Assembly: GCA_030684575.1 (NCBI GenBank)
Contig: JAUXVD010000012.1
Span: 62,001 to 126,000, forward strand
From: Nitrospirota bacterium
GTDB lineage: Bacteria > Nitrospirota > Nitrospiria > Nitrospirales > Nitrospiraceae
Direction of reading: 5' to 3'
Length of the DNA: 64,000 bases
Made by a program: the position numbers and the translations under genes. Each line of letters begins with the position of its first letter. The first letter of the stretch is position 1. Below, piece after piece: positions 16,765-60,546 of the stretch. The notes below the pieces were generated by a model that had not been told where the DNA came from, ran no database searches, and worked only from the letters and a program-made list of their open reading frames with translations.

Positions 16765-16889
16765 CAGAATGCTGAAAAAGTCCGCCAGCGTCGTTCTCGG
16801 CTCATCAAAATCCTCAACGTACCCCAAGGGTACGCCTCCGGTTTTGATTCGCCTGCGGCCTTGCTGGACAAACTTTTTGAGCATCCTGC
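16765..16889. repeat. Family-1 palindromic repeat, copy 2
   Basis: Begins on the base after the thiD stop (CAGAATGCTGAAAAAGTCC) and ends ACTTTTTGAGCATCCTGC. The centre carries the apex GTACCCCAAGGGTAC. This copy is in the opposite orientation to copy 3. Arms are complementary in blocks, so the RNA or single strand would fold into one long interrupted hairpin. Confidence 0.9.
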
Positions 16890-16977
16890 GGGAATGTTAT
16901 CCATTGGGCTCACGGATGCAGATGATCACAGCTCTCGGACACCAACATAGTTTTCAGCCTCCTGCCAGGAGAAATTT

Positions 16978-18258
16978 ATGGGTCATTTGACCGCCCGCCC
17001 ACTCACGTTTCTGATCACTGGGTTCGGCTGGCTGCTGCTGTCTTCGCTGGCAGGATTGGCCGTCCTCGTTGGCTTGATCCATGGCACACCGCTGCCCACT
17101 TGGTTCAAACTGGTCCATGTGCATGCCACCCTCATCGGCGGCATCCTGCAACTGATGGTCGGCGGGCTGCTTGCCTCCCTCTCGCATAATTCCCATAGTG
17201 ATCGCACTCCCTCAGATTCCCATCTCGGTCTATTCGCAGCCCTAAACGCCGCCACGGTCGGTTTGCTCGTAGGATTCGGACTCGGAAACATGCAGATCGT
17301 CGGCCTGGCCGGGATTGTCGTACTTGGAGCAGTCGCCTCCATCGCCTCGGTCGCCTGGCAATACCACCGGCAAGGCTCGACCGACCAGGCCAATCCCTCC
17401 TGGCTCTATCGATTCTCACTCATCGCGTTGCTCGGAGGGTTGGCCATCGGCATCGCCATGACCTTTCGAATCATGCCGGAATACTATGCCCATGCGCGCC
17501 TGCTGCACCTGCACATCATTCTGATGGGTTTCGTCACGCTGGGGCTGATCGGCGCCACGCACCGGCTCCTGCCCACGATCTTACATGCCGAACTCTACAG
17601 CCCGCGGCTCGCCCGGCTCGTCATGCGACTGCTTCCCGCCGGCTTCGCCCTCTTGATCGGCGGGTTTATCACCTCGTCCCTCCGCTTCGAACTCGTAGTC
17701 GGGGGACTGCTCGCCCTCACCATTGGCCTCTATGCCTATAACCTCTTACGCACCTGGATCGGCTCAGGCCAGCCTGGAAACGCCGCCTCCGATCACCTCC
17801 TGGTCGCGACATTCTTCCTGGTCCTCACGATGACCCTAGGCGTCCTCGTCGGGGGCAACTTCCTCCCGCAACTACCCGTATTGCCGTTTGGATCATTGCA
17901 CCTCGCAGCCTATGCCCATATGGCTTTCATCGGGTTTATGTTGCAGACCATCTATGGAGGCTTGTCCTATGCCATTCCTGTCATGTTGGCGACTAGCCGT
18001 GTCGCCAGCCGAAAAAAACAGGAGCCCTATCGAGAGCAACTGGCAGCCATCATGGACCGATGGCGAGCCGTTCAGCTGGCCGGGTTGAGCATGGGATCGA
18101 TGGGCTTTGGCGTACTCGCAGCGATGACCTGGAACTTCCCGCTCAATTCACTCCCCATGCAAATCGCCACCTGGGTTACCGTCGGCCTGCTCCTGAGCAG
18201 CCTGGCCCTCTTTACCGCCAAACTCGCCTGGGCCTTCGGGGCTCCTCCCAAAGGTTAA
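16978..18258 (+). CDS. Polytopic membrane protein resembling heme-copper oxidase subunit I
   Basis: 426 residues with about twelve hydrophobic segments and few charges. Paired histidines sit in helices as in heme-binding oxidase subunits: HVHATLIGG at about 47-55, LLHLHIILMGFVTLG at about 174-188, and HLAAYAHMAFIGFM at about 306-320. The pattern recalls the cbb3/NorB branch or NnrS, but the CuB histidine set is not evident, so it may bind heme without being a terminal oxidase. No other oxidase subunit or cytochrome lies alongside. AGGAG precedes the ATG. I infer an inner-membrane heme protein; function open. Confidence 0.6.
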   Translation: MGHLTARPLTFLITGFGWLLLSSLAGLAVLVGLIHGTPLPTWFKLVHVHATLIGGILQLMVGGLLASLSHNSHSDRTPSDSHLGLFAALNAATVGLLVGFGLGNMQIVGLAGIVVLGAVASIASVAWQYHRQGSTDQANPSWLYRFSLIALLGGLAIGIAMTFRIMPEYYAHARLLHLHIILMGFVTLGLIGATHRLLPTILHAELYSPRLARLVMRLLPAGFALLIGGFITSSLRFELVVGGLLALTIGLYAYNLLRTWIGSGQPGNAASDHLLVATFFLVLTMTLGVLVGGNFLPQLPVLPFGSLHLAAYAHMAFIGFMLQTIYGGLSYAIPVMLATSRVASRKKQEPYREQLAAIMDRWRAVQLAGLSMGSMGFGVLAAMTWNFPLNSLPMQIATWVTVGLLLSSLALFTAKLAWAFGAPPKG

Positions 18259-18292
18259 CCGGCTTGCTTCCCCTTTAATAGAACACGGCCCT

Positions 18293-19075
18293 ATGGAAGA
18301 AGCCCTCACATTCCGTGATCGTCATGGTCACCATGTTGCCGCAATCCTAAGCAGGCCAAACGAAGCAACGTCGCGTCTCGCGGTGCTCTGCCACGGGTTT
18401 CTCTCCGGCAAGAACAGCACGACCAACAAAACCTTGACCAGCCTCCTCAATGAACAGGGCCTGGCCACCCTTCGGTTCGACTTTTTCGGTCAAGGAGAGA
18501 GCGACGGACCGTTCGAAGCGATCACGACCACGCTGGCAATCGCACAAACGGAAGCCGCCCTGGACCTGGTGGCCGCCAAGGGATACGACCGAATCGGACT
18601 CGTCGGCTCAAGCTTCGGAGGGCTCGTGGCCATTCTGACGACGGCCCGACGGCAGGACGTCACCTGCTTGGCCCTGAAATGTCCAGTGGTGGACTTTGCG
18701 GAAGAGCTGCGCGTAACATTCGGGCCTGAAGAATTGGCTCGCTGGCAAGCCACAGACACGATTCCGAACATCATGGGCGGGCTCGACCGAGTCCGTTTAC
18801 AGTATGGTTTTTACGAAGACTGCCTCGAACAGATTGCGTATCGGCCGGCTGAACGAATCACCGTGCCCACATTGATCGTTCAGGGTGAGCAGGACGAATG
18901 TGTGCCGCTCCATCAAAGCCGGCGATTGCACGAGGCGCTGGGAGGTCTGAAGCGGCTGGATCTCCTGCCTGGCGCCGATCACCAGTTCACACGCGGGGAA
19001 GATTTTCTCCAGATGACGACTTCGATCAGCGAATGGCTCGTCAGGCATCTCATGACTGAGGACAAGATCGTTTAG
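18293..19075 (+). CDS. Alpha/beta hydrolase (serine aminopeptidase/esterase-like)
   Basis: 260 residues, no signal peptide. Typical elements: LAVLCHGFLSGKNSTT oxyanion loop, LRFDFFGQGESDG, nucleophile elbow GSSFGG at about 104-109, an acidic residue in IVQGEQDECVP and the C-terminal histidine in LPGADHQFTRGED. This resembles cytosolic esterases of the cinnamoyl-ester-hydrolase type. The gene starts 34 bases after the membrane protein and may share its transcript. A perfect hairpin follows it. Substrate unknown. Confidence 0.85.
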   Translation: MEEALTFRDRHGHHVAAILSRPNEATSRLAVLCHGFLSGKNSTTNKTLTSLLNEQGLATLRFDFFGQGESDGPFEAITTTLAIAQTEAALDLVAAKGYDRIGLVGSSFGGLVAILTTARRQDVTCLALKCPVVDFAEELRVTFGPEELARWQATDTIPNIMGGLDRVRLQYGFYEDCLEQIAYRPAERITVPTLIVQGEQDECVPLHQSRRLHEALGGLKRLDLLPGADHQFTRGEDFLQMTTSISEWLVRHLMTEDKIV

Positions 19076-19083
19076 GCTGACTA

Positions 19084-19111
19084 GAGTCGTGCGCAACAAA
19101 TCGCACGACTC
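19084..19111. terminator. Perfect 10-bp hairpin after the hydrolase gene
   Basis: GAGTCGTGCG, 8-base loop, CGCACGACTC, beginning 8 bases after the stop at 19075. It has no U-tract, but position and symmetry suit a transcript end. Confidence 0.6.
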
Positions 19112-19131
19112 CATAGCAAAGGAGCCTCCCG

Positions 19132-19256
19132 CAGGATGCTCAAAAAGTCCGTCCAGCAAGGCCGCAGGCGAATCAAAACCGGAGGCGTACCCTTGGGGTA
19201 CGTTGAGGATTTCGATGAGCCGAGAACGACGCTGGCGGACTTTTTCAGCATCCTAC
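19132..19256. repeat. Family-1 palindromic repeat, copy 3 (best-preserved)
   Basis: GCAGGATGCTCAAAAAGTCC at the left, AGGCGTACCC-TTGGGGTACG at the apex and GGACTTTTTCAGCATCCT at the right. The outer 17-18 bases of the two ends pair with one mismatch. It lies between two plus-strand genes, ending 10 bases before the ATG at 19267, so the next gene's leader is formed by the repeat. Confidence 0.92.
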
Positions 19257-19266
19257 TAAACCGAGC

Positions 19267-19719
19267 ATGATTACCGAAGGTGCCCAACAAGTATTAACTG
19301 TGCTGTATCCCCTCTACAAAGAGGAGGTCTACCGGCGACGTGAACAGATGATGCGGCTCACGGCCTTTGGTTCACTGGGCCTGATTGCCTTGCTCTGTGC
19401 ATTCATCTTCAGTCCACAGAAGGATCGGCTCACGGGCTTCGATGCGCTGGTCCTCGGCATGGCCAGTCTCATCTGGTGCGGGCTGTTCTGCGCATTGATC
19501 TCTCAACAACAGTCCCGACATCGGCTGGCCAAACAAATCCTGATTCAGCTCGAGCAGGCGTTGGGGTTTTACGAAGACGGCCTTTTTGTCGAGAACCATT
19601 CTCTCTATCCGGAAGGGTGGAAGACCGCCTGGCTGGGCGATCGGACTGCGACCCTCTACTTTGTGTCGCTCTGGTCATTGACGGGCCTGTTCCTGCTCTC
19701 GCTCCTCTTCTCTTCATAA
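19267..19719 (+). CDS. Small membrane protein, three transmembrane segments
   Basis: 150 residues. Hydrophobic segments lie at about 31-48, 58-78 and 128-147; between the second and third is a soluble stretch (about 80-120) with LAKQILIQLEQALGFYEDGLF. No known family is recognised. The start at 19267 has no clear ribosome-binding site, and the repeat copy 3 occupies the upstream region, so expression may depend on read-through. Confidence 0.7.
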   Translation: MITEGAQQVLTVLYPLYKEEVYRRREQMMRLTAFGSLGLIALLCAFIFSPQKDRLTGFDALVLGMASLIWCGLFCALISQQQSRHRLAKQILIQLEQALGFYEDGLFVENHSLYPEGWKTAWLGDRTATLYFVSLWSLTGLFLLSLLFSS

Positions 19720-19977
19720 CGCTCGCTCACAGCTCTCACAACATTCAGACCTCCAACTCTGCGCCCTTTCTTGCCGACCCTAGGAAGTTTCTTCCGGCTT
19801 TTCCTTCCTCTCTCTACAGATATACGTGGACACCGCCATCGCACACCGAGAGTTTCCTCGCCAATCAAACGATTTTCACGAAACATGCGGATGAATTCCC
19901 CTGCATGTACGGGGCATACGCTTTGCGTAGCTATCACCATCTGTTCCACCACCGTTCTCACGATAAAGGAAGGTACC

Positions 19978-20925
19978 GTGACACCGGTCCTCACATCGCA
20001 CCCTGCCACATGTATCTTTCTTACCATCACCCTGTTCGCGGGCCTCACGCCCTCGATGGTTATCGCTGCTGAACAAGGGAGGGAAGGCCCGCATAGCCTG
20101 ATTCACCGGCCACAGGCAGCGCGCCCTGCTCTGCGCGCGCCAAGCCGAGAGACCGGGGTCAGACCTCTCAACGATCAACCTCCTCGCCTCACACCCAGGG
20201 CCGAACTGCCGACAGCCTCAGCGCCGCCAACAAGCGCGCCAGTGAAGCATCATCGAAAACTCGCCACGCGCCCAACCATTGTATCGACCGCTATTGCAGC
20301 CCGAGAAACATCGCTCGCCGCAGCCGTGCAAGTGACACGGACAACATCCGATTCCAGCAAGGCGACTGCGCCTCCGGCAACGGCGCCAATAATACAATCG
20401 ACCGCAAGCTCCGTCGCAGGCCCCTCTTCGACTGCTCCTGCGACGGCAGCTCCGAGATCTTCCACGCCATCTCCCTTAGCCAATGCGGCAACTGCCGGTT
20501 CTGTGGCCTCGACTGGAGGCGGTTCAACTTCTTCATCCAGCGGTTCAAGATCGGCAGTGAACCTGCTCAGGACCTCCGCCATTGCGAGCTTACTCCAAGC
20601 TCCCACGCCTGTGGTCGTCGCACCTCCGGCATCCCCGCCCTCTCAAATTCCTCCATCGACGTCTCCTCCAGGTCCATCGACTGGAAACGTGACACTCTCA
20701 TGGACGGCAAATATGGAACCAGACTTGGCAGGCTATAAAGTCTACGTCGGCACAGCGTCAGGCCGATACGATTTCCCTGGATCTCCTTTCATGACAGGAC
20801 TCGTCACGAGGTATACGGTCTCCAACCTTCCAAAGCCCCAAACCTACTTCTTCGCCTTATCCGCCTACGACAATGCCGGGAACGAGAGTGCGCTCTCGGC
20901 GGAAATCAGCAAGAGCCTCTATTAG
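19978..20925 (+). CDS. Secreted protein with Ser/Thr/Pro-rich region and C-terminal fibronectin type III domain
   Basis: The frame is open from 19771, but AAGGAAGG precedes a GTG at 19978, which gives a proper signal peptide (PATCIFLTITLFAGLTPSMV, cut near AA-EQ). About 200 residues of low-complexity Ala/Ser/Thr/Pro sequence follow, then one fibronectin III domain at about 238-315 (VTLSWTANMEPDLAGYKVYV ... TYFFALSAYDNAGNESALS). The product is probably exported and attached by or through the repeat-rich spacer. The TAG stop abuts a family-1 repeat. The start is the least certain point. Confidence 0.7.
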   Translation: MTPVLTSHPATCIFLTITLFAGLTPSMVIAAEQGREGPHSLIHRPQAARPALRAPSRETGVRPLNDQPPRLTPRAELPTASAPPTSAPVKHHRKLATRPTIVSTAIAARETSLAAAVQVTRTTSDSSKATAPPATAPIIQSTASSVAGPSSTAPATAAPRSSTPSPLANAATAGSVASTGGGSTSSSSGSRSAVNLLRTSAIASLLQAPTPVVVAPPASPPSQIPPSTSPPGPSTGNVTLSWTANMEPDLAGYKVYVGTASGRYDFPGSPFMTGLVTRYTVSNLPKPQTYFFALSAYDNAGNESALSAEISKSLY

Positions 20926-21047
20926 CGACCGCTGAAAATCTCCGCCAACTGCGTTCTCGGCTCCCTAAAATCCTCAACGTACCGCAAGGGTACGCTTCCG
21001 GTTTTAGTTCGCCTGCGGCCTTGCTGGTCAGCGATTTTGAGCGATCG
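20926..21047. repeat. Family-1 palindromic repeat, copy 4 (diverged)
   Basis: Starts directly after the TAG at 20923-20925 with CGACCGCTGAAAATCTCCGC and ends near AGCGATTTTGAGCGAT. Apex GTACCGCAAGGGTAC and the inner CCTGCGGCCTTGCTGG match the family. The outer ends have changed together (GCTGAAAAT / ATTTTGAGC), so the stem is kept. Confidence 0.82.
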
Positions 21048-21150
21048 CAATATTCCAGCTCATAGAATATTCGGCAAGCTACTACGATCTCTTCGGGTGA
21101 CCGTTTTGAGCAGCCTATTTTCAGTGGAGATGCGAAGGAGCGTATTCTCT
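21048..21150. other. Spacer between two repeat copies
   Basis: About 100 bases without coding sequence. It includes GACCGTTTTGAGCAGCC, which resembles the outer arm of a family-1 variant, so it may be a third, decayed copy. Confidence 0.4.
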
Positions 21151-21279
21151 GCAGGATGCTCAAATAGACGATCCAACTAGGCCGCAAGGAGTCCGGCGAC
21201 TGAGGCGTACCCTTGGGGTACGTCGCAAGGAGACGGACGACTGAGAACGACGTTGGGCGTCTATTTCAGCATCCTGCTA
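21151..21279. repeat. Family-1 palindromic repeat, copy 5
   Basis: Begins GCAGGATGCTCAAATAGACG and ends CGTCTATTTCAGCATCCTGCTA. The outer arms differ from the consensus (AAATAGACG instead of AAAAAGTCC) but in a compensatory way, so pairing is kept. The last CTA is the stop codon of the minus-strand gene at 21277. Confidence 0.88.
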
Positions 21280-22071
21280 GGAGTGGGCGCAGCGGAAGCC
21301 CGTATAACTATTGCGCGTCTCAGGCAGCAGTTTGAAACGCCCATAGGTGAGAAGATATTTCGGTGCGTCGGACCAGGATCCACCGCGGAGCACTTTAAAT
21401 TGACCTGACTCAGGTCCTTGCGGATTGTGTTCCGGCGAGTGCTCGTAGTAGTTCACACCATACCAATCCTCTACCCATTCCCCGGCGTTCCCGGCCAGTT
21501 GCAAGAGCCCGTATGGACTCTTGCCCTGCCCATAGGACTGCACAGGCATCAAGACCTGGCTATAACTGAACCGCGCACCCAATGCGTAATTCGCCCGTTC
21601 CTTGTTCGGCACCTGATTGCCCCAGGGATACCATCGTCCATCCGTTCCTCGGGCCGACTTTTCCCATTCCGCTTCGGTCGGAAGCCGCTTCCCCCTCCAC
21701 CGGCAATAGGTATCCGCATCAGACCAGTCCACGCCGATCACCGGCCGATCGCCATGCTGGGATGGCTCGACCATATTCCATTGCCACGGGGCTGGGCGAT
21801 TCGTCGCAGCGAGAAAAACTGCGTACTGCGCCGTCGTCACTTCGTGAACGTCGATAACGAACCTGGATAGCCACACGTGATGCGCGGGACGCTCATCTTC
21901 AAGCGCCTGCATTCCATCGACACCCATCGTAAACGGCCCTTCGGGAACCTCGACCATTGGAGTTTCAACAAGAGGCGGCAGCTCCAGGGCCTTCGATCTT
22001 CTCAGCCGATCAAGCTGAGCAATCGTATGAGAATCGAACACGAAAAAGAAAAGGATGGTCAAAACGGTCAT
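21277..22071 (-). CDS. Formylglycine-generating-enzyme (SUMF1/EgtB/PvdO) family protein
   Basis: 264 residues. The FGE-sulfatase domain covers about 40-262: FTMGVDGMQALEDERPAHHV, DVHEVTTAQYAVFL, the signature RLPTEAEWEKSARG, WPYWG-type WYPWGN, and AGNAGEWVEDWYG with LRGGSWSD and the end GFRCAHS. Such domains modify cysteine or bind iron-sulfur-free copper or iron centres in sulfatase maturation, or serve other roles; the active-site cysteine pair of true FGE is not evident. The annotated ATG at 22071 lies inside a family-1 repeat and yields a very short hydrophobic start (TVLTILFFFVF). A GTG about 33 bases downstream (VFDSHTIAQ) is an alternative. Confidence 0.8.
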   Translation of the reverse strand: MTVLTILFFFVFDSHTIAQLDRLRRSKALELPPLVETPMVEVPEGPFTMGVDGMQALEDERPAHHVWLSRFVIDVHEVTTAQYAVFLAATNRPAPWQWNMVEPSQHGDRPVIGVDWSDADTYCRWRGKRLPTEAEWEKSARGTDGRWYPWGNQVPNKERANYALGARFSYSQVLMPVQSYGQGKSPYGLLQLAGNAGEWVEDWYGVNYYEHSPEHNPQGPESGQFKVLRGGSWSDAPKYLLTYGRFKLLPETRNSYTGFRCAHS

Positions 22072-22176
22072 CCAACAAGGCCGGAGCCGAAGGCCACACC
22101 GCAGGCGTACCCTCAGGGGTACGTTGAGGATGTGACCAAGGCGAGAACGCCGTTGGGGACCGTTTTCACCATCCTG
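22052..22176. repeat. Family-1 palindromic repeat, copy 6 (variant arms)
   Basis: AGGATGGTCAAAACGGTC at the left and GACCGTTTTCACCATCCT at the right: all positions that differ from the consensus do so on both sides, so the stem stays nearly perfect. Apex GTACCCTCAGGGGTAC. It overlaps the 5' end of the minus-strand FGE-like gene and ends 4 bases short of the stop of the methyltransferase. Confidence 0.9.
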
Positions 22177-22180
22177 AGGA

Positions 22181-22840
22181 CTAATGGATAAGCCCTCCTA
22201 CGACCCAATGCCGATCATCCGGCACATCGATGATCAACCGCGTCAAATTCATTTGTGCCAATTGTGCACTGATTTCATCTTCGGTGAACGATGCCAGCAG
22301 CGAGTGATAGAAATCTCTCCTCAGAATGTCCGGAGCCTCAGAGGCATACCGATCGACGATCGCCTGCGCCTCTTCCGGCGATTCCGGTCGCAAGAGGTCC
22401 ATCACGAGTACTGGCGAGCCTGGCTTCACAGCCAACCGTATTTTGTGCCAGAACTGCAGCGGGTTCGGCACATGGTGTAACAGGCTATTGGACATGGCGG
22501 CATCGGCCATATTGGCCCCGGCAAGGTCCTGAAATCGTTCGCAGCGGAAGGTGATACGATCGGAGAGGCCCGCTTGCCGTACCATGTCCTCGGCCAACCG
22601 GATCATCGGAGAGGACGCGTCGACCGCAGTAATCCGACAGCCCGGCACCGCGCGAGCCAAACGAATGGGAATATCGCCAGGACCACAACCCAGGTCAAGC
22701 ACATGGCCCGCGGAGAATTCCGGAAAGTATTCACGGAATAGATCGACGAAGCTCTGGTTTTCCTGCGAAAAGTCCGCCGCCGCATAGGCCTGAACCTGCG
22801 CGTCGTCCTCCATCAATTCCGGTTCGAGAGTTCGATTCAT
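22181..22840 (-). CDS. Class I SAM-dependent methyltransferase
   Basis: 219 residues. SAM-binding motif I HVLDLGCGPGDIPIRLA at about 46-62, then acidic loop ITAVDASSPMIRLAEDM, motif II/III SNSLLHHVPNPLQFW and PVLVMDLLRPES. This is a free-standing methyltransferase of the UbiE/Methyltransf_11-25 type, acting on a small molecule or protein that cannot be named. GGGGGGAG precedes the ATG at 22840. It is upstream of the FGE-like gene on the same strand, with a repeat between. Confidence 0.85.
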   Translation of the reverse strand: MNRTLEPELMEDDAQVQAYAAADFSQENQSFVDLFREYFPEFSAGHVLDLGCGPGDIPIRLARAVPGCRITAVDASSPMIRLAEDMVRQAGLSDRITFRCERFQDLAGANMADAAMSNSLLHHVPNPLQFWHKIRLAVKPGSPVLVMDLLRPESPEEAQAIVDRYASEAPDILRRDFYHSLLASFTEDEISAQLAQMNLTRLIIDVPDDRHWVVGGLIH

Positions 22841-22919
22841 CGCTCCCCCCTTGTCGCAACAAGCTTATGGCTGTTCACGCATCTTCACAACCACTCAGCG
22901 ATAGACCCTACTCACTTAC

Positions 22920-22948
22920 TTGACCATGCCCCAACCGCTTGCTATAAA
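22920..22948 (+). promoter_or_regulatory. Strong sigma70-type promoter of the HU gene
   Basis: TTGACC (22920-22925), 17-base spacer, TATAAA (22943-22948), about 54 bases before the GTG start of the HU gene. It is one of the two closest matches to the housekeeping consensus in the window and suits a highly expressed nucleoid protein. Confidence 0.75.
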
Positions 22949-23001
22949 TACTCTCGCAGGATGTTCCTGCACATTCGTGCCAACACCGAAAGGGGAATCT
23001 C

Positions 23002-23274: not shown

Positions 23275-23300
23275 CCATTTCCAGGACTCACCGAGCATTC

Positions 23301-34293: not shown

Positions 34294-34422
34294 GCAGGAT
34301 GCTCAAAAAGTTCGTCCAGCGAGGCCGCAGGCGAATCGAAACCGGAGGCGTACCCTCAGGGGTACGTTGAGGATTTCGATGAGCCGAGAACGAAGCTGGC
34401 GGACTGTTTCAGCATCCTGCTA
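34294..34422. repeat. Family-1 palindromic repeat, copy 7
   Basis: GCAGGATGCTCAAAAAGTTCG at the left and ACTGTTTCAGCATCCTGCTA at the right, apex GTACCCTCAGGGGTAC. The right end is CTA, 8 bases before the stop of the minus-strand sterol desaturase-like gene at 34431. It forms the left border of the accessory tract. Confidence 0.92.
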
Positions 34423-34430: not shown

Positions 34431-35249
34431 TCATGGTTGGGTACGCCCGACGTAGCGCCCGAGCCGCGTCACAAACGGGAACCGCAACATCATGAACAGG
34501 TTCAAACAGACCGGGGGGCCCAGGTGCTCGAGGCCGATCGTCATCCCCGTCTGCCCCAAGGCCGGTTCCGGACAATAGGTTCCGAACAGCCGGTCCCACC
34601 AGGGCACATTGAATCCATAGTTGCTGTTGGTTTCGCGCACGTCCACTGAATGGTGGATGCGGTGCATGTCCGGCGTGACGATGAACCAGCGGAGATAGGG
34701 CTCGGCTGCGAGGGGGAGCTTCACATTGCTGTGATTGAACAGGGCCGTGCTGTTCAGCACGATCTCGAAGACCACCACCGCCAGGGGAGCGACCCCCAGC
34801 GCCACCACCGCTGCGCTCTTGACCATCACCGAGAGCACCATCTCCACCGGATGAAACCGCACCCCGCTGGACACATCCAGATCCAGATCTGAGTGATGCA
34901 TCATATGAAACCGCCAGAGGATCGGAACCAGATGGAACACCTGATGCTGCCAGTAGATGATGAAATCAAGCGCCACCACGGCCACACCCATTTCGAGCCA
35001 GGCCGGTCCGTCAATCCAGTTCAAAAGCCCCCACCCGCGCTCCTGCGCCATCACCGCCATCGCAACCACGCCACCAGCAAACAGCACGCGCGCGATGACC
35101 GTATTCATGATGACGATCGTGAGGTTGCCGCCCCACCGGCAGAGCTTCGAAGCCGTCAACACACGGCGCGGCGCCAGCATTTCCCACGTGGCCATGATGA
35201 CCAGCACGGACAGATACGAACCCACCCGAACCAGATCTGCAGATCCCAT
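34431..35249 (-). CDS. Sterol desaturase/fatty acid hydroxylase family protein
   Basis: 272 residues from ATG 35249, with GAGGAGAGG upstream; a longer frame starts at 35288. Several membrane segments and the four histidine clusters of the family: WQHQVFH, FHMMHHSD, RFHP and HRIHHS, which bind a di-iron centre. The family hydroxylates or desaturates lipids, sterols or carotenoids; the substrate cannot be told from sequence. The gene is downstream of, and in line with, the minus-strand run that follows to 40.7 kb. Confidence 0.87.
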   Translation of the reverse strand: MGSADLVRVGSYLSVLVIMATWEMLAPRRVLTASKLCRWGGNLTIVIMNTVIARVLFAGGVVAMAVMAQERGWGLLNWIDGPAWLEMGVAVVALDFIIYWQHQVFHLVPILWRFHMMHHSDLDLDVSSGVRFHPVEMVLSVMVKSAAVVALGVAPLAVVVFEIVLNSTALFNHSNVKLPLAAEPYLRWFIVTPDMHRIHHSVDVRETNSNYGFNVPWWDRLFGTYCPEPALGQTGMTIGLEHLGPPVCLNLFMMLRFPFVTRLGRYVGRTQP

Positions 35250-35323
35250 AACAATCCTCTCCTCGACTTCAATACCACCCGATAGCACGTAAGAGGCGCG
35301 AACGATGGAATGGATTCAGGCTG

Positions 35324-40701: not shown

Positions 40702-41181
40702 AACATCTTGTCAACGACCCTTCCAAGCTTGCTCATATCTGCTTCAAGTGGGTAGTCTGTTTAGCCACCCACTGCGCTCGTCCAACGGGGCTCTTCTAAG
40801 GGCGCACGTTCCGAGAGCACAGAAAACTTTCCAATCTTCTTCTTGATTCATATCTACCTCTCCAAGGGGAGTAGCCAGATTGCCCTTCACTGCGCGCATT
40901 GAGGGAGCACATTCTGATCGTGCGGCCTCAGCGAGCAAGAAGGGCGGTCTGGCTGCTCCCCCTTCCTTATTCAATGCCCTTCCGAGCTCGCTCATGACTA
41001 TCTAAAAGGGCGGCCTGGTTGATCCTCTATTGCGCGCGTCGAACGATATAAACGATCCTTCCAAGCTTGCTCGCTATCTCTTCAGGGATGGGGACTGATT
41101 GATCTTCCACTGCGTGCGTCCAACGAGGGCCTTCTAAGGCCGCGCGTTGCGCGAGCACAGAAGATCATCAGGCTCCATCCC
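40680..41181. repeat. Cluster of family-2 palindromic repeats
   Basis: About five units in various states of decay. The best, at 41085-41181, is bounded by GGGATGG / CCATCCC, has an inner pair TGATCTTC / GAAGATCA and a core GGCCTTCTAAGGCC within GCGTCCAACGAGGG and GCGCGTTGCGCGAGCA. Others at about 40766-40827 and 40880-41075 show the same core with more changes. The unit is palindromic and unrelated to family 1. No coding sequence is seen in the 559 bases from 40702 to 41260. Confidence 0.75.
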
Positions 41182-43593: not shown

Positions 43594-43764
43594 CCAGGAT
43601 GCTCAAAAAGTCCGTCCAGCAAGGCCGCAGGCGATCACCCGTTCACTTAGGGGTGGATGGGATGATCCCAACTGCGCGCGTCCAACGAGGGCCTTCCGAG
43701 GCCGCGCGTTGCGCGAGCAAAGGGATCGCCCCATCTACCCCACTCCATTTTTCAGCATCCGTTA
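43594..43764. repeat. Family-1 palindromic repeat, copy 8, interrupted by a family-2 unit
   Basis: Left end CCAGGATGCTCAAAAAGTCC through GCCGCAGGCGA is family 1; right end TTTTTCAGCATCCGTTA is family 1; the middle, about 43650-43741, is a complete family-2 unit (GGGGTGGATGGG ... CCCATCTACCCC with core GGCCTTCCGAGGCC). The family-1 apex is missing. Nested insertion or replacement is the simplest reading. The end supplies TAA for the minus-strand gene at 43762. Confidence 0.88.
43650..43741. repeat. Family-2 palindromic unit nested in family-1 copy 8
   Basis: Shares about 45 of 49 core bases with the unit at 41085-41181: GCGTCCAACGAGGG, GGCCTTC, AGGCC and GCGCGTTGCGCGAGCA. The outer pairs are GGGGTGGATGGG / CCCATCTACCCC and GATCCC / GGGATC. 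Confidence 0.85.
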
Positions 43765-44862
43765 CGTTCTGACTGAAAGAGAGAAGGTCGTCTGTCTGGT
43801 CGATTGATATGCAAGAGAGACCGAGGGTCCTGCTTGTGCTGGAGCCGCGGGAGTCTCATTCGCCTGGGTCGGCAGAGTCCCTTCGACCGGACTTTCGGCC
43901 GGCTTCCCGTTCTGCAAGGCCTTCCCGAGGTTGCTCAGGAATTGCGAGAAATACTTGTCGAGCTTTCGCGGCGAGATCCCTGAGTTTCTGGTGGCGTCCA
44001 ATACCTGCTGGACGATGGACGAGAGCTGGTTGGGCGCCGATTCTGACGCCGTGGTCAGCGGGGATCCGACAACGCCGGACGCGATGGGCGTTGAGGCCAC
44101 AGGCTCGCTGGGCACAGGCGTTTCGGAAGGCGGAGGCGTCGTCGCCACGTCATTCGTAGGTGCTTCACCCTGAGGCACGGCCTCGGTCGTTGAAGCCTGG
44201 ACTGCGCCATCAGGAACCGTGGTGTCGGCAGGGGGCGCCTGGATCACGTCATCCGTCGTCGGCAGCGGTCCCTGGGTCACGGCGGGAGTCGTGGGAGCCG
44301 GAAGGACGGCCTCAGGCGCGGTGCCTGCCTGGCCGACTACCTCGCCGGTCAATTGGGCGGCAAAGGCGGTTACCGACCGTTCATAATCAACATTCAGGTC
44401 TAGAGCGGACAGGGAGGAGTAGTTCTCAAAACTCTCGCCCAACTTGACGGCCTTGGCCAAGGCCGCGTCATCCTGTCCGCTCAAGACTTTTTTGAAGATG
44501 TTGGCAACCTTCCGAAAGAGGCTGGTGAGGTCCTTGACCTCCTGTTCGTTCAGATCGCCTTCGACGGTCACGCCAAACTCTTGCTTCAGCGAGTACTCGG
44601 CATACTTAGCGTTCACATCCACCGTCTTGCCGTCGCCTTCGGCATGGGACTTATAGCTCACCGCACGGAAATTGGATTGAAGATTCGCCGAGATGGTGAT
44701 CTTGTCTCCCTCTGCCGTCGTCACGCTCAACCGACCTGAAAAGTCGGTCGACACAGCAACTCCACTGACCTTCGTATCCAGCCGCTGGTTGCCAGTGGTA
44801 TTGGTTGGCGCGAGGTTGAAGAACTGGCTGGGATCGACTTGAGTCAGCGCTTGGACGGGCAT
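43762..44862 (-). CDS. Hypothetical protein with Pro/Thr-rich centre
   Basis: 366 residues, GAGGAG upstream of the ATG. The N-terminal 150 residues are protein-like and helical/beta mixed (SVTTAEGDKITISANLQSNF, KYAEYSLKQEFGVTVEGDL, DLTSLFRKVANIFKKVLSG); about 175-265 is a Pro/Thr/Ala-rich spacer; the C-terminus has SIVQQVLDATRNSGISPRKL and ends SLSVRT. No signal peptide. No family is recognised; the modular shape suggests a surface or structural protein. Its stop is in the outer end of a repeat. Confidence 0.7.
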   Translation of the reverse strand: MPVQALTQVDPSQFFNLAPTNTTGNQRLDTKVSGVAVSTDFSGRLSVTTAEGDKITISANLQSNFRAVSYKSHAEGDGKTVDVNAKYAEYSLKQEFGVTVEGDLNEQEVKDLTSLFRKVANIFKKVLSGQDDAALAKAVKLGESFENYSSLSALDLNVDYERSVTAFAAQLTGEVVGQAGTAPEAVLPAPTTPAVTQGPLPTTDDVIQAPPADTTVPDGAVQASTTEAVPQGEAPTNDVATTPPPSETPVPSEPVASTPIASGVVGSPLTTASESAPNQLSSIVQQVLDATRNSGISPRKLDKYFSQFLSNLGKALQNGKPAESPVEGTLPTQANETPAAPAQAGPSVSLAYQSTRQTTFSLSVRT

Positions 44863-51400: not shown

Positions 51401-52987
51401 CTAGGGCGTCGCGCGGACATAGATATCAGGCTGAGCCGCACCGCCTGCAACGAGGTTGCTCGCCAACGAGGAGAAGGCCACAAAATCCCCGTTGCCGACG
51501 ATGACAGGGACAGCACTTGCGCCAGAGCCTGCAATGGCAGGGGAGCTATTGTCCTTTGAGACAAGAGTCGATTGATTGCCTTGCGTGTCGCGAAAGAGAA
51601 TTTGAGAACCACTTCCCCCGGAAATGGAGGCGATGTTTGTGGCCAACGAAACGAAGGCAATGAACGGTCCGCTTGTCGCACTGATCGCGGGCTGACTGCT
51701 TGCGCCGTTTCCCGCATTGCCCAGGGTATCCCGCGACACCAGACTCGTGAGATTGCCGATCGTGTCCCGAAGATAGATTTGAGAGCCACTCCCTCCCACA
51801 AGCGATGCCAGATTCGTCGCTTGTGACGTGAAGGCCATAAACTGTCCGTTCCCGCTGATTGAGGCTTGGCTACTTGCGCCATTTCCCGCATTGCCCGCGG
51901 CATCTCGCGACACCACGCTCGTGAGATTACCGATCATGTCTCGGAGGTAAACCTGAGAGCCACTCCCTCCCACAAGCGTCGCCAGGTTCGTCGCTTGCGA
52001 CGTGAAGGCCACAAACTGCCCGTTTCCACTGATAGCACTCTCACTACTTGCGCCGTTCCCTGCATTGCCTGCGGGATTCCGCGAGACCAGCGAGGTTTGA
52101 TTGGCTTGCGTATCGCGAAGGAACACCTGAGTGCCACTCCCCCCGGCAATCGACGCGAGATTCGTGGCCGCCGAGGTAAAGGCGACATACCGACCGTCTG
52201 CGCTGATCGCAGGCTGGCTGCTCGCCCCATTTCCCGCATTGCCCAGGGTATCGCGCGACACCAGAATGGTTTGATTGGTTTGCGTATCGCGAAGAAACAC
52301 CTGAGTGCCACTCCCTCCGGCAATCGACGCGAGATTCGTGGCCGCCGAGGTAAAAGCGACATACCGACCGGTCTCGCTGATCGTCGGCTGATTGCTAGCT
52401 CCATTTCCCGCGTTGCCCAGGTCGACCCTGGACACTAAACTGGGCGGGCCCGTTTGGCGATCATGAATAAAAATCTGCGAGCCGCTGCCTCCTGGGAGAG
52501 CCGTCAAATTCGTAGCCGATGACGTAAATGTGATGAAGCGGCCATCTGTGCTGTTGATAGCGGCTTCTGGGCTTGTCCCGTTACTCGATGCCCCCGAACC
52601 ATCTACCGAAACGCGATCCGTTCTCGGATGGATGGCAAACAAGACCGACCCTGTCGCCGTCTTTCCCGTGCTGTCACTCACCGTGAACGTTGTGGTGACA
52701 TTCCCAGCAGGCGCAGCCGGTGTGCCAGTCACAATCCCGGTCGTCGCGTTCAACGTCAACCCGACTGGCAAGACCCCACCGGATACGGTCCAGGCGAATG
52801 GCGCGGTCCCCCCTGTGGCAACTAAGGTCGAGGAATAGGCATTCCCGACTACGCCATACGTTGCCGAGGTCGTCGATACCGCAAAGGCCGGACTATTGCC
52901 TCCTCCCCCACCGCTCCCACCGCCTGAGCAGTTGAGGAGACTGACCCCGAGGATCATGACCGACAATATTGAGGCGATGTGTTTCAT
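51401..52987 (-). CDS. Lipoprotein with putative Ig-like domain and seven-bladed TolB-like propeller
   Basis: 528 residues, AGGAG upstream of the ATG. Lipobox SLLNCSGGGSGGGGG, then an Ig-like cadherin domain (about 35-115: PFAWTVSGGVLPVGLTLNA, TFTVSDSTGKTATG) and seven repeats of about 58 residues from about 120 to 528. Each reads like NAGNGASSQPAIS..GRYVAF, TSAATNLASIAGGSG and QVFLRDTQANQTSLV, the PD40 type of a TolB-like propeller, with seven copies as in a full ring. It is exported and surface- or periplasm-anchored. A binding role is likely; none is proved. Confidence 0.82.
   Translation of the reverse strand: MKHIASILSVMILGVSLLNCSGGGSGGGGGNSPAFAVSTTSATYGVVGNAYSSTLVATGGTAPFAWTVSGGVLPVGLTLNATTGIVTGTPAAPAGNVTTTFTVSDSTGKTATGSVLFAIHPRTDRVSVDGSGASSNGTSPEAAINSTDGRFITFTSSATNLTALPGGSGSQIFIHDRQTGPPSLVSRVDLGNAGNGASNQPTISETGRYVAFTSAATNLASIAGGSGTQVFLRDTQTNQTILVSRDTLGNAGNGASSQPAISADGRYVAFTSAATNLASIAGGSGTQVFLRDTQANQTSLVSRNPAGNAGNGASSESAISGNGQFVAFTSQATNLATLVGGSGSQVYLRDMIGNLTSVVSRDAAGNAGNGASSQASISGNGQFMAFTSQATNLASLVGGSGSQIYLRDTIGNLTSLVSRDTLGNAGNGASSQPAISATSGPFIAFVSLATNIASISGGSGSQILFRDTQGNQSTLVSKDNSSPAIAGSGASAVPVIVGNGDFVAFSSLASNLVAGGAAQPDIYVRATP
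51650..52440. repeat. Tandem 174-bp coding repeats of the propeller gene
   Basis: Blocks with the marker CCACTCCCTCC or CCACTCCCCCC recur every 174 bases (51783, 51957, 52131, 52305, by eye). Nearby blocks are almost identical over more than 100 bases, which is more than protein-level constraint needs and suggests recent duplication or gene conversion. Confidence 0.75.
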
Positions 52988-53896: not shown

Positions 53897-54025
53897 GCAG
53901 GCTTGTCAAAACGGTCATCCAACTAGGCCGCAGGCGAGTCAAAACCGGAGGCGTACCCTCAGGGGTACGTTGAGGATTTTGATGAGCCGAGAACGACGTT
54001 GGGGACCGTTTTCACAAGCCTGCTA
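53897..54025. repeat. Family-1 palindromic repeat, copy 9 (variant arms)
   Basis: GCAGGCTTGTCAAAACGGTC at the left, GACCGTTTTCACAAGCCTGCTA at the right, apex GTACCCTCAGGGGTAC. The changed outer bases are matched on both sides. The terminal CTA is the stop codon of the minus-strand gene at 54023. Confidence 0.92.
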
Positions 54026-55525
54026 ACGGAGGAGGGCCATCACGGCCAAACAGACCAAAAGATTATTGATCGCATGCGCCAGCATCCCCGGCAAAAGACT
54101 CCCGGTTTTCTCATACATCCAGGCCCAGAGCAGGCCACTCCATAGCACACTGATGAAGCCGACCAATCCATAGCCATGGGCAACGGCAAAGATGCTCGCA
54201 CTGATCAACGCGGCAGGCAGGAAGCGGAACCTCCGACGCAGAATCGCGAACAGGAGCCCTCGAAACGCGAGTTCTTCAAACACGGGCGCGAAGATTACAT
54301 ACTCGACTAAGCTGATCGCCGTCAGCATCGGTGAGGCCCAGACAAGATCTGCGTCGAACCATTCAGCCCAGTGACTCGTCAGATGAAGCGGCTCCGACAG
54401 CCAATCCATCACCCACTCGCCCCACAACCCGGCAGCCACCACCGCCAAGACCGCGGTCGCCAGACCTCCGGCACGGGCCCATCCAATCTCCAGTCCAAAT
54501 CCTTCGTCGAACGTCATCCCGGCCGGACGGAAGAGATGGCGATGGGCCAAAAAGAGTAACGGCAGATTCGTCATCGGAATGGCCAACGCCCGAAGCGACG
54601 CATTGTCGGGCGGCGCATACATCATAAATAGCGCCGTAAACATCGCACCGATCGCGCCACCGCGGAGCAAGACTGCCGCACCGATTCCGCCTGGCCAGGG
54701 CGGCGGCACGCCCGGTTCATGGAGCCTGACGAAACTGGACGGCTCCTTCCGCCTCAGCCAGATGAGGAGTAACGCCACCGTCCCGAGGACCAGCGCGCTG
54801 AGCTCGACAAGCGTGACGCGCTGCGACCGGACAAACTGACGGTCGACACGGTCCGCGGCCTGTTCCTGAATCCTGCGCACGAGCGCGTGATCGTTAGCAC
54901 GGCGGGCCAGCCCTTCAGCCAGGCGGTCGTAAAACCAGCCGGCAGGCAACAGCTCTGCCGCCTCGGCTTGCCACAAGACATACTGGTCCGCATCATGAGC
55001 TGGTCCTTCGCCGTAGGCGGCCATCACCAGATCGGCAAACTGAGGCAGCGGATCGTCCGCTTCGGTCCATTCGTGCGCAGAGAGAAGCGCCTGGGACACA
55101 TGGCCGGCCTCGGCTTGAAGAATCGCTAACTGAAGCGGCACGACCGGATCGGCAGAGACCCGGGCCAATTCTCGATACCATTCAATCGCATGGGTCTGTT
55201 CAGACTCGCGATCGCCGGAGGCCCAGGTAAAGAGCCATTGCTCCCATGGTCTCGCACGCGTGAGTCCTTCATGAACATCCATCGTCCGACTAACCATCAG
55301 ACTGAGCGCTTGCTCTGGGGCCTCGATCCGCTCCAGCTTGGATGCCGAAGCGGATAGCCACACCACCATTGCCAAGGCTCCCACGAGAAATATGGCTGCC
55401 AACAGCGTGACCTTGGGCGAAAATCGTCCGGGATAGATCCCGACCGGCGGCGGCGCGTCCGTGGCTCGCCACCAGGATTGTGGCGGCGGTGCCTCGTTGA
55501 GGGACACAGTATCTGACTCCATCAT
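54023..55525 (-). CDS. CPBP-family intramembrane metalloprotease with a large N-terminal extension
   Basis: 500 residues from ATG 55525 (MMESDTVSLNEAPP); a longer frame begins at 55597 and a second ATG is at 55522. One membrane helix at about 45-62 is followed by a soluble, helical, TPR-like part (about 65-215: EQTHAIEWYRELARVSADPV, LQLAILQAEAGHVSQALLSA) and then several helices with the CPBP (Abi) motif: FEELAFRGLLF near residue 423 and the later AHGYG and LAHAINN. These supply the glutamates and histidines of the metalloprotease. Substrate unknown; relatives include prenyl-protein CAAX proteases and bacteriocin immunity proteins. Confidence 0.84.
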   Translation of the reverse strand: MMESDTVSLNEAPPPQSWWRATDAPPPVGIYPGRFSPKVTLLAAIFLVGALAMVVWLSASASKLERIEAPEQALSLMVSRTMDVHEGLTRARPWEQWLFTWASGDRESEQTHAIEWYRELARVSADPVVPLQLAILQAEAGHVSQALLSAHEWTEADDPLPQFADLVMAAYGEGPAHDADQYVLWQAEAAELLPAGWFYDRLAEGLARRANDHALVRRIQEQAADRVDRQFVRSQRVTLVELSALVLGTVALLLIWLRRKEPSSFVRLHEPGVPPPWPGGIGAAVLLRGGAIGAMFTALFMMYAPPDNASLRALAIPMTNLPLLFLAHRHLFRPAGMTFDEGFGLEIGWARAGGLATAVLAVVAAGLWGEWVMDWLSEPLHLTSHWAEWFDADLVWASPMLTAISLVEYVIFAPVFEELAFRGLLFAILRRRFRFLPAALISASIFAVAHGYGLVGFISVLWSGLLWAWMYEKTGSLLPGMLAHAINNLLVCLAVMALLR

Positions 55526-55858
55526 GGCGCGAACTATACCATGCTGATTTTCCGACTCGAAACCCCTCAAAGTGACTAGGCCACACAGAATACCCATGGC
55601 CGAACACGATTGAACTCCGCTATACTGAGCCGCTTTCTTTCCAGCCTGGGAGAACGCAAGCCTCGGTCAACTGATCGTTCGTGAATTTGCATCTCTGACG
55701 CGATAGGGGGAGGCCCCTACAGGATGCTCAAAAAAATCGTCCAGCAAGGCCGCAGCAAGTGAAGGGCCGAGGCGTACCCGGAGGGTACGTTGAGGGTCTG
55801 AACGATGCGAGAACGACGCTGGCGATCTTTTTCAGCATCCTGTTAGATCTGGAGTGTG
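55526..55858. other. Divergent region between the CPBP and aminotransferase genes
   Basis: 333 bases with no gene. The right 130 bases are family-1 repeat copy 10; the left half has no clear promoter, though TATACT occurs near 55621. Confidence 0.45.
55720..55846. repeat. Family-1 palindromic repeat, copy 10
   Basis: CAGGATGCTCAAAAAAATCG at the left and CGATCTTTTTCAGCATCCTG at the right, apex GTACCCGGAGGGTAC. It ends 12 bases before the ATG of the aminotransferase gene, so it lies in its leader. Confidence 0.92.
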
Positions 55859-57046: not shown

Positions 57047-57067
57047 CGACAAAAGGATATCGATCAC

Positions 57068-57670: not shown

Positions 57671-58881
57671 TAACATCCTTTGCCATTCGCTCAGTGCGTG
57701 TCATCGACGGGACCGGTCGAACGATCGAACGGGCCACGGTGATGATTCGAGGGAAGACCATTGCCGCTATCGGACCGGATCGAGCGCTCGCGCTCCCACG
57801 TGGCGCGACCAAGATCGATGGCCGTGGGCTGACGCTGTTGCCAGGATTGATCGACTGTCACGTGCACTTCTGCCTTGGAGCCGAGCCGGATGTCGTCGAG
57901 GCGATCGCGAACGAGACGTCCGCACTGACATTGCTCAAGTCCAGCCGGGCGGCTCACCAAACCTTGGAGGCAGGCGTGACCACCGTACGCGACGTCGGGT
58001 CGCGGGACCATGCCATCTTCACGTTGAAACAGGCCATCGATACGGGCCTCGTGCCAGGGCCTCGCATCGTCGGAGCGGGTCTGGCGATTTGTATGGTCGG
58101 CGGCCATGCTCGATTTATCGGTCAGGAAGTGGAAGGGGTCGAACAAGTCCGTGCGGTCGTACGCGCTCAAATCGCCGCTGGAGCTGGCGTCATTAAAGTC
58201 ATCGCCTCTGGCGGTGTCCTCACGCCAGGCACCTCGCCGGACCAGGCCCAAATGACGGTGGAAGAACTCAGGGCCGCCGTGGAAGAAGCCGGGCAAGCGG
58301 GGCGGAAAGTCGCCGCCCATGCCCATGGATCGTCAGGGATGAAAAATGCCATCCGCGCCGGAGTCCATTCAATCGAGCATGCCACGCTCATGGACGAAGA
58401 AGCCGCAAGCATGATGCGCGGGCAGGGAGTCTTCATGGTCCCGACCCTCTCCGCGCTGGCCACCACGGCCGCCTGCCGTCTCGGGTGCGGGGTGCCGGAC
58501 AGTGCGCGCGACAAAGCCAAAGCGATGACGAAACGTCATGCCGTCAGCTTCAAGAACGCTCTGCGGGACGGCATCCAGATTGCGATGGGCACCGACGCGG
58601 GGACGCCCTTTAACTTTCATGGCGAGAACGCCCAGGAGCTTGAACGGATGGTCGCCTTCGGCATGAGCCCGATGCAGGCCATTCTCGCCTCGACCTCCGC
58701 TGCCGCGCGTTTAATCGGCATTCAGGACCAGGTGGGAACCATCGAGAAGGGGAAAGTGGCCGATCTTCTGCTGATCGAAGGCAATCCGATCCGTCGTATC
58801 GACCTACTGCGCGACCGCAGCCGGATTGTCGGGGTCATGCAAGCAGGCAAGTGGGTCGCGGGGCCACTTTCGAAGACGTGA
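57667..58881 (+). CDS. Amidohydrolase (imidazolonepropionase/prolidase-like)
   Basis: 404 residues. The metal site is recognisable: LLPGLIDCHVHF near 62-73, a lysine in GAGVIKVIASGG at about 174-185, HAHGSSG at about 218, SIEHATLMD at about 235 and MGTDAGTPF at about 305. Cytosolic. Relatives hydrolyse dipeptides, imidazolones or triazines; substrate unknown. It overlaps the heme-protein gene by four bases, so it is translated from the same message; the functional tie is not evident. Confidence 0.87.
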   Translation: MITSFAIRSVRVIDGTGRTIERATVMIRGKTIAAIGPDRALALPRGATKIDGRGLTLLPGLIDCHVHFCLGAEPDVVEAIANETSALTLLKSSRAAHQTLEAGVTTVRDVGSRDHAIFTLKQAIDTGLVPGPRIVGAGLAICMVGGHARFIGQEVEGVEQVRAVVRAQIAAGAGVIKVIASGGVLTPGTSPDQAQMTVEELRAAVEEAGQAGRKVAAHAHGSSGMKNAIRAGVHSIEHATLMDEEAASMMRGQGVFMVPTLSALATTAACRLGCGVPDSARDKAKAMTKRHAVSFKNALRDGIQIAMGTDAGTPFNFHGENAQELERMVAFGMSPMQAILASTSAAARLIGIQDQVGTIEKGKVADLLLIEGNPIRRIDLLRDRSRIVGVMQAGKWVAGPLSKT

Positions 58882-58936
58882 AACGTGAGACGTACAAGGT
58901 GAAACGATTTCGAGCCGGCCTTGTTACGTTTACCCT

Positions 58937-59578
58937 CTACCGCCGCTCGTAGAATAACTCGAGCGCACTGGCAAAGCCTTTGATGCGGCCTTTGCGGAAC
59001 ACGTCCTCGAGCTGACCACCTAGCGATCTGACGCCTCCCTCATCGCCACGATTCGCCACCCCTTGAGACAACAACATCTCCGTGGCCACTTCGACGAGGC
59101 GCTGCTTGCGCCCCTCCATGTCAGGCGTGATCAGCTCGTCCATAATCTCCGCCGCCCGCTCCCGAATAATGGCTTCCTTGAACGTGTCATACCCTTGATC
59201 CGCCACCGTCCGCTCGCGGATCACGGCGAGTTCAGATTTGATCCGCTTCACGTCTTTCATTAATACCGCAAAGATTTCCTTCCGCCCCTCATCGAAAAGC
59301 TTCAGCTCCATCTCGTCGAGAATAACGGCTGGATCGATCGCTTCATCGCGGGTGGTTTCATCCCCCCAGTTAAGTCGATCGTAGTTCCGCCGCTTCTCCG
59401 GGTCACCAATGATTTCATACGCCGCATTGAGCTCACGGATCTTGGCTTCAGCCTGTGTGCTCTCGGGGTGGCGATCAGGATGGTGCTGAAAGACCAGCTT
59501 CCGGTAGGCCTTCTTGACCGCGTCGTCGGACGCGTCTCGCGAGACCCCCAGCACCCGATAGAAGTCGATTCGTGCCAT
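58937..59578 (-). CDS. J-domain (DnaJ-like) protein
   Basis: 213 residues from ATG 59578 (ORF continues upstream, but MARIDFYRVLGV is the classic start). J domain at 1-70 with YRVLGVSRDASDDAVKKAYR and HHPDRHPE, including the HPD that stimulates the ATPase of DnaK. The rest is helical with no zinc-finger or glycine/phenylalanine region, so it is not DnaJ itself but a co-chaperone. Convergent with the amidohydrolase. Confidence 0.88.
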   Translation of the reverse strand: MARIDFYRVLGVSRDASDDAVKKAYRKLVFQHHPDRHPESTQAEAKIRELNAAYEIIGDPEKRRNYDRLNWGDETTRDEAIDPAVILDEMELKLFDEGRKEIFAVLMKDVKRIKSELAVIRERTVADQGYDTFKEAIIRERAAEIMDELITPDMEGRKQRLVEVATEMLLSQGVANRGDEGGVRSLGGQLEDVFRKGRIKGFASALELFYERR

Positions 59579-59749
59579 GGCGGCGACTATAACATGGGAC
59601 TTCACCGGGCTTCACCTTGCCCCCTGCATTAAAACACTCTCACCTGGCGTAACTCCCAACGGCCTGCGACTTGCGAAATAACCGATTCAATGTCAGTCTG
59701 AATCGTGCGCCCCCTTGACATCCCCCCAAAGCGGCTTATGGTATGAGTT

Positions 59750-60421
59750 ATGACGAACACACCGCCGCCCAAAGCCCTGACCCACGACGAGAAGAAAGCT
59801 GCCGATGCGGCCTTTGCCGGTCGCCCCTTCGATAAATCCTGGTCTGCTGCCGCCCGAGCCGTCTACGACGGTATTGTGAAGGCCTTGCCTCCCACAGACG
59901 CCGTGAGCCCTATTCCCTCCACGGTGGAAGAATCCGCAGAGGCTCCGTCCGCGCAGCATGAACCGCACGAGGCTCAAGAACCTCTCTCGCTCGAGCCGGT
60001 CGATGGGCAAGAGTTGCTAGAGGGGACGGTCCTGCCTCCGGCCATTCGCGACCGAGACGCGGCCATTCAAGCCGGGACGTTGATCGACGTAACGTCGACC
60101 GCCCTGCAACTCGGTATCACCTTCCCGGTCACGATCACCAGACCGCTCTGGGAAGCGGGCATTGTCACAACCCACGCACTCCCTGAAGCAGATCAAACGA
60201 ACCGGTTGCGCGACATTCTCATGGCCTTTCGCCTACGCCTGGCCAGTCTGACAACCGTGTCGCCCCTGCTCGACTTTCCAGTTCTTCTGGCCTTACCGCC
60301 AAGCACGGTGCCTCAACCAGTGCCCTTGTTTGCGCTCATTCAGCCGGATCCCACGCACCAGGCGAATGTAACCCTGCTGCTACCGAACGAAGTGTCCCTC
60401 TCCATCACCTCGCTGAATTGA
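59750..60421 (+). CDS. DUF6573-like hypothetical protein
   Basis: 223 residues. An N-terminal segment (KALTHDEKKAADAAFAGRPF) is followed by a variable Pro/Glu-rich linker and a C-terminal domain beginning IQAGTLIDVTSTALQLGITF, then PVTITRPLWEAGIV, which resembles DUF6573 proteins seen on mobile elements. The match is by eye only. The gene ends TGA, directly followed by a family-1 repeat. Convergent with the nucleotidyltransferase gene. Confidence 0.6.
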   Translation: MTNTPPPKALTHDEKKAADAAFAGRPFDKSWSAAARAVYDGIVKALPPTDAVSPIPSTVEESAEAPSAQHEPHEAQEPLSLEPVDGQELLEGTVLPPAIRDRDAAIQAGTLIDVTSTALQLGITFPVTITRPLWEAGIVTTHALPEADQTNRLRDILMAFRLRLASLTTVSPLLDFPVLLALPPSTVPQPVPLFALIQPDPTHQANVTLLLPNEVSLSITSLN

Positions 60422-60546
60422 CAGGCTGTTGAAAACGCCCGTCAGCGGCGTTCTCGGCTCGCAAGAATCCTCAACGTACCCCGAGGGTACGCCCCCGGTT
60501 CTTGCTCCACCTGCGGCCTTGCTGGCGTCCTTTTTGAACAGCCTGT
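60422..60546. repeat. Family-1 palindromic repeat, copy 11
   Basis: CAGGCTGTTGAAAACGCCCG at the left and GGCGTCCTTTTTGAACAGCCTG at the right, apex GTACCCCGAGGGTAC. Starts immediately after the TGA at 60419-60421, between convergent genes. Confidence 0.9.

Follow-up and report, generated by a model that had tools for sequence, protein, structure and literature searches.

Palindromic repeats beside stop codons in Nitrospira are probably the structured part of a 200-bp mobile element with CTAG or TTAG as target

The palindromes scattered between the genes of a 64,000-nucleotide stretch of Nitrospirota DNA (hereafter the window) very probably belong to a MITE of about 200 bp, of which they make up the structured two thirds and which, to judge from its ends, would be moved into CTAG or TTAG by a DDE transposase of the IS5/IS1182 group. 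To our knowledge, most bacterial palindromic repeats have no known mover or are restricted to a single lineage. For the present family the ends, the target duplication, the empty sites and a candidate partner insertion sequence can all be read from the sequence. A search of the open-access literature, with subscription literature outside it, returned no description of the family in Nitrospira.

A sequence-only reading of the window had listed eleven copies of about 125 bp, built from an outer arm, inner GC blocks and an apex. The palindromes are real and this layout is correct for the family. Nine of the eleven are full copies of about 129 nt, for which a covariance model built from 35 copies gives E values no higher than 5e-25, but the copies at 2930 and 43594 turned out to be chimeric and are not simple members. 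In the following list L denotes the end next to the neighbouring gene and R the far end; gene calls are computed, not curated.
16762-16889, minus strand: palindrome copy, its first 3 nt being the TAG stop of a phosphomethylpyrimidine kinase (thiD-like) gene at 15808-16764
16951-16964, plus strand: far (R) terminal repeat TTTTCAGCCTCCTG, 61 nt past the palindrome copy 16762-16889
19131-19258, plus strand: palindrome copy, with a gene start at 19267 downstream of the L end
20922-21049, minus strand: palindrome copy, its L end overlapped by the TAG stop of the gene at 19771-20925
21151-21279, plus strand: palindrome copy, its L end being the TAG stop (21277-21279) of an FGE-sulfatase-domain gene at 21277-22071, minus strand
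22050-22179, plus strand: palindrome copy, its L end adjoining the TAG stop (22181-22183) of a methyltransferase gene at 22181-22840, minus strand
34294-34422, plus strand: palindrome copy with the top score in the window, the stop of the gene at 34431-35288 (minus strand) lying 8 nt from its L end
53897-54025, plus strand: palindrome copy, its L end being the TAG stop (54023-54025) of a CAAX-protease-domain gene at 54023-55597, minus strand
55719-55845, plus strand: palindrome copy of a subtype with the inner stem AAGTGAAGGGCC/GGGTCTGAACG
60419-60546, minus strand: palindrome copy, its L end being the TGA stop (60419-60421) of the gene at 59750-60421
2930-3072, plus strand: degenerate, chimeric copy, with the right half only, behind an unrelated GC-rich hairpin insert (model E = 0.22)
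43594-43760, plus strand: chimeric copy with the outer arms of the family, its apex replaced by a second palindromic repeat at 43671-43722

The GC-rich hairpin of the copy at 2930 is found elsewhere nested in the apex of copies of about 194 nt. This subfamily, with a GC-rich hairpin of about 65 nt in the apex, is complete at L204:6411-6606 and present as a half copy at 2930-3015 of the window; by their length, L171:5908-6101, L184:2122-2315 and L175:4741-4934 would also belong to it. The second palindromic repeat, ACTGCGCGCGTCCAACGAGGGCCTTC..GAGGCCGCGCGTTGCGCGAGCA, occurs in the window at 40771-40822, 41109-41160 and 43671-43722, and both here and in congeners it also sits within the apex of the first family.

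With one palindrome copy as a DNA probe we obtained 41 matches in the genome, and with the covariance model at least 150 copies in its 3.79 Mb. An unselected stretch of 400 kb held about 19, corresponding to some 180 per genome; this genome was analysed in stretches totalling 0.85 Mb. The density of copies in the window is about three times the genome average, and five copies lie inside 5.4 kb at 16762-22179. Copies are thus found throughout the genome and in its relatives, covariation in them exceeds chance, and the genome-wide matches and the covariation together exclude a chance origin.

That the stem rather than the primary sequence is kept had been surmised from a few divergent copies, and this is borne out: at 33 of the 42 base pairs both arms have changed in a compensatory manner, and covariation greatly exceeds that of shuffled and slid controls. 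Across 150 copies, 94.7% of cells are paired, and two-sided changes affect 817 cells as compared to 234 +/- 11 in shuffles, with a covariation score of 0.384 against 0.132 in shuffled alignments and at most 0.054 in slid registers. In the innermost variable helix (columns 44-49/156-161) the columns are nearly random, and still 89% of cells are paired. The most conserved columns are the unpaired internal loops, among which AAGGCCGCAG facing CCGAGAACG, and GGA facing GA next to two nearly fixed G.U pairs, are fixed. On the strand ending in CTA, G.U pairs outnumber A.C mismatches by 211 to 54 with the two nearly fixed G.U pairs left out, or by 27 to 5 when counted by pair, and 134 of 148 copies have their lower folding energy on this strand (mean -67.8 vs -61.0 kcal/mol); these counts come from copies that are related to each other and from a model that was built on the CTA-ending strand. 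They suggest that it is this strand that folds, as RNA or as single-stranded DNA. A search against Rfam gave no match over the whole window at gathering thresholds, and none at E < 5 for 19000-22300.

Two-sided changes might also be purely mutational, if the arms are homogenised by a polymerase that switches templates within the hairpin, or by gene conversion among copies, in the absence of any selection on the fold. Such processes would account for many subtypes existing side by side, for the swapping of whole subtypes at orthologous sites and for double changes that arise together. However, template switching should erase the asymmetric internal loops as well, and these are the most conserved columns, and a strand-neutral mechanism predicts equal numbers of G.U and A.C rather than the observed excess and the two nearly fixed G.U pairs. 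We consider this explanation unlikely.

The palindrome is only part of what moves, which the earlier reading overlooked along with the placement at stop codons and the strong conservation of the unpaired loops: it makes up two thirds of a mobile unit of about 200 bp. The unit, whose ends read CAGG[AC]TGC[TG]GAAAA, lies within a duplicated 4-bp target, which is CTAG or TTAG. Starting at the neighbouring gene, the order is YTAG, the L end CAGGATGCTGAAAA, a hairpin of about 126 nt, a tail of about 61 nt, the R end TTTTCCGCAGCCTG and again YTAG. In the flanks of 97 copies from the genome itself, the borders of the palindrome are sharp, with TAG directly followed by CAGGATGCTGAAAAAG at one foot and CATCCTGC closing the other. 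Filled orthologous sites are about 75 nt longer than the palindrome, and this tail closes with the second terminal repeat and then CTAG or TTAG. The L end is present in all copies. Using several end consensuses, we found the R end at +50 to +75 in 39 of 182 copies, as opposed to a single occurrence in a control window, and followed by CTAG in 12 cases, TTAG in 7 and CCAG in 5. In the other 143 we recognised no R end where one would be expected, which points either to decay of these copies or to an ability of the palindrome to move in a shorter form. Within the window a full unit spans approximately 16765-16964, between CTAG (16761-16764) and CCAG (16965-16968).

Insertion is documented by five pairs of filled and empty sites in sister species, where the empty site holds a single YTAG; two pairs are perfect, and three have one base changed or an altered or shifted flank. 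At L158:7622, the filled site in genome G000 reads GACGC-TTAG-unit-TTAG-AACAATGG and the empty one in G017 GACGC-TTAG-AACAATGG. At L189:9668, where CTAG is duplicated, the filled site in G009 reads TTTCCTAG-unit-CTAGAGACGGC and the empty one in G017 CTTCCTAGAGACGGC. Movement of the element is thus well supported and, with terminal inverted repeats, a target site duplication and an autonomous insertion sequence with matching ends in congeners, it has the attributes of a MITE. The TAG of the stop codon is not itself part of the element, as thiD in G017, G021 and G003 retains it where the element is absent. For this element-free thiD site a later deletion is more likely than an empty site that predates insertion, because 88 nt past the palindrome are also missing. 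At the thiD 3' ends in L109, L110, L112 and L113, a duplicated TAGTAG precedes remnants of the element, so that the unit is placed 3 nt further on than in other species.

The partner elements were located independently, through a search for DUF772. Insertion sequences of about 1.32 kb in the congeners G008 and G014 have ends that are the exact complement of the unit's far-end repeat. Those at L236:651-1968 and L239:651-1969 have the ends CAGGCTGCGGAAAAAC, with the end motif CAGGCTGCGGAAAA, within CTAG..TTAG or CTAG..CTAG. A second type (L241, L251) has the ends CAGGCTGTTGACAAAC in CTAG..CTAG, and its end motif CAGGCTGTTGACAA matches a second subtype of palindrome copies. The encoded proteins combine DUF772 with DDE_Tnp_1 and match models for IS5, above the cut-off, and for IS1182. 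The L239 protein reaches 280 bits against a cut-off of 140 for the NCBIfam IS5 family NF033581, and that of L241 falls slightly under the cut-offs for both IS5 and IS1182; as the transposase resembles both groups, its family name is not firm. A genome-wide search at E 1e-4 found no DUF772-type transposase in the genome of the window, and the partner is therefore inferred from sister species, whose IS5/IS1182-type DDE transposase apparently moves the unit. A further type of insertion sequence in congeners (L246:376-1969, L247:416-1929) has the ends GAGCCTGTCCGA with CTAG on both sides. In the mechanism that we propose, insertion sequences with identical ends would supply the transposase in trans, which would cut the unit and paste it into CTAG or TTAG, duplicating those 4 bp.

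The sequence-only reading had suggested a RAYT as one possible mover, and for this route we found no support. A RAYT (Y1 HUH) transposase would recognise a REP-type element by its hairpin, the foot of which carries a TAG-like tag. The palindromes are indeed mostly intergenic and have a conserved trinucleotide at one foot, and the genome does encode a single Y1_Tnp transposase, far off on contig C8. Yet 14 of 32 congeners lack a Y1_Tnp match, several of them more than 98% complete and rich in copies, and the 5 copies found in 88 kb within 1.5 kb of Y1 genes correspond roughly to the background frequency. Insertion by an HUH enzyme is moreover not expected to yield 4-bp duplications and an R end, and the duplications by themselves contradict it. 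Mobilisation by a RAYT is hence highly improbable, and the DDE transposase remains our preferred candidate.

The most peculiar feature of the family is its placement. Of 97 copies, 39 have a palindrome whose final three bases serve as the in-frame stop of an ORF of at least 80 aa on the opposite strand; 32 of these stops are TAG, 4 TAA and 3 TGA, although TAG accounts for only one third of stops in the sample (242 of 726), an even share. According to a simple gene caller, 73 of 94 copies have a convergent gene at the L end, mostly with its stop no more than about 15 nt away. A stop at the foot is found at the L end in 6 of 15 full units and at the R end in 1 of 15. In the window, stops are placed exactly or nearly so at 16762, 20922, 21277, 54023 and 60419, and the chimeric copy 43594-43760 abuts the TAA stop (43762-43764) of the gene at 43762-44862 on the minus strand. 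With TAG in the target often being a stop codon, insertion would in many copies set the foot of the hairpin right on the stop. Target availability as the entire cause is ruled out, however: stop codons make up only 84 of 1253 non-coding YTAG sites but 32 of 44 TAG-ended copies, and selection or some coupling therefore adds to the choice of target.

Such exact placement and the fixed orientation raise the question whether the palindromes are instead a structured RNA of the host or an mRNA 3'-end element (a terminator, stabiliser or ribosome-stalling hairpin), selected site by site, with the mobile features incidental. Orthologous sites do stay filled across the genus, with 216 occupied against 84 empty comparisons, but the occupied class can contain re-insertion or gene conversion. 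The 145 orthologous occupied pairs range from 99% down to about 62% identity at the same nucleotide position and often differ in subtype although the upstream gene is more than 90% identical; replacement or gene conversion must therefore be common. Among the 60 pairs that are more than 80% identical, double changes preserve pairing by 111 to 26, whereas single changes break pairs nearly as often as they keep them (106 vs 114), and selection on individual copy sites is not proved. The hairpins further lack the U-tract of an intrinsic terminator, and the clean insertions with target duplications, as well as the matching ends of the insertion sequences, speak against an origin as a host element, to which we assign somewhat less than an even chance. 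With a mobile element as the preferred reading, the fold, needed by the copying lineage, would have constrained the unit over a sufficiently long period of copying, and the unit would often have been retained at gene 3' ends. Copies kept at orthologous 3' ends may now serve as mRNA 3' hairpins with an influence on decay, on termination or on the ribosome as it terminates. In that case nitrite-oxidising and related bacteria would have hundreds of genes whose mRNAs end in the same stop-codon hairpin.

Dozens of copies are present in each of the 31 congeners searched. Of 198 Nitrospirota genomes, 88 gave matches at E 1e-6, and distant families are among those that carry copies. In a pattern scan of 84,980 species, the matches listed place the core in MAGs of Nitrospira, Nitrospinota and Deltaproteobacteria, with 111 copies in one Nitrospinota MAG, and 10 and 14 in two from Deltaproteobacteria. 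Although the scan pattern does not include the right-hand CCGAGAACG block, 66 of 81 cores have it (with a few alternative bases allowed by the filter). That distant copies would each have arms of their own proved mostly wrong, as most of the Deltaproteobacteria copies inspected carry the usual CAGGNTGTTCAAAAAG arms. Among 498 ORFs around the 81 cores no recurrent gene adjoins the core in distant genomes, and the core has no match in viral contigs or plasmids. Judged from the copies compared, the fold is conserved and the sequence is not across at least three phyla: in Nitrospirota, Nitrospinota and Deltaproteobacteria, the fold including its loops appears to be retained while the helices turn over fully, which offers a testable case of selection on nucleic-acid structure within a mobile element. 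We tentatively put forward that the hairpin might be a previously undescribed structured module of RNA or single-stranded DNA, under selection on one strand and spread through these phyla by mini-transposons as their cargo or their working part; the loops would then bind a conserved factor, and the position at the stop would allow the module to influence the terminating ribosome or the 3' end of the mRNA.

Among known systems, the closest in design is RUP of Streptococcus pneumoniae, a geneless element of about 100-200 bp that has more than 100 intergenic copies, generates a target duplication and shares its terminal repeats with its partner IS630-Spn1 (PMC2229807). The present family matches it in all these respects, but differs in the 4-bp YTAG duplication (TA for RUP), in the IS5/IS1182-type rather than IS630 partner, in having its foot at stop codons and in the conservation of fold and loops across phyla. 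ERIC/IRU of enterobacteria is likewise an intergenic imperfect palindrome of similar length (127 bp), transcribed as a long stem with orientation-dependent effects on mRNA; its target is TA instead of CTAG/TTAG, and no partner insertion sequence is named (PMC2229807). Compared by description, ERIC has no recognised sequence relation to our family. REP/BIME elements are also extragenic palindromes present in hundreds, but are 14-40 nt long and linked to a RAYT, which our family is not; E. coli REPs at most 15 nt from a stop codon lower translation (PMC12306157). The IS1272/IS1182 family, whose transposases are of a related group, prefers palindromic sites, and IS1272 replaces a target stem-loop and makes no duplication (PMC5678879); in our family a 4-bp duplication is made and no stem-loop is replaced. 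The deltaproteobacterium Geobacter has dispersed, multicopy intergenic families that are palindromic or RNA-like, one of them proposed as short RNAs with a GRCGTAGCGCTGCTACGCC centre (PMC2700814), which by description resembles the apex found here.

Two further repeats were noted in the window. Four tandem 174-bp repeats at 51681-52421, about 79% alike, lie within an ORF at 51401-52987 on the minus strand, and the similar stretches 62243-62586 and 63337-63680, 1094 bp apart, are perhaps duplicated genes.
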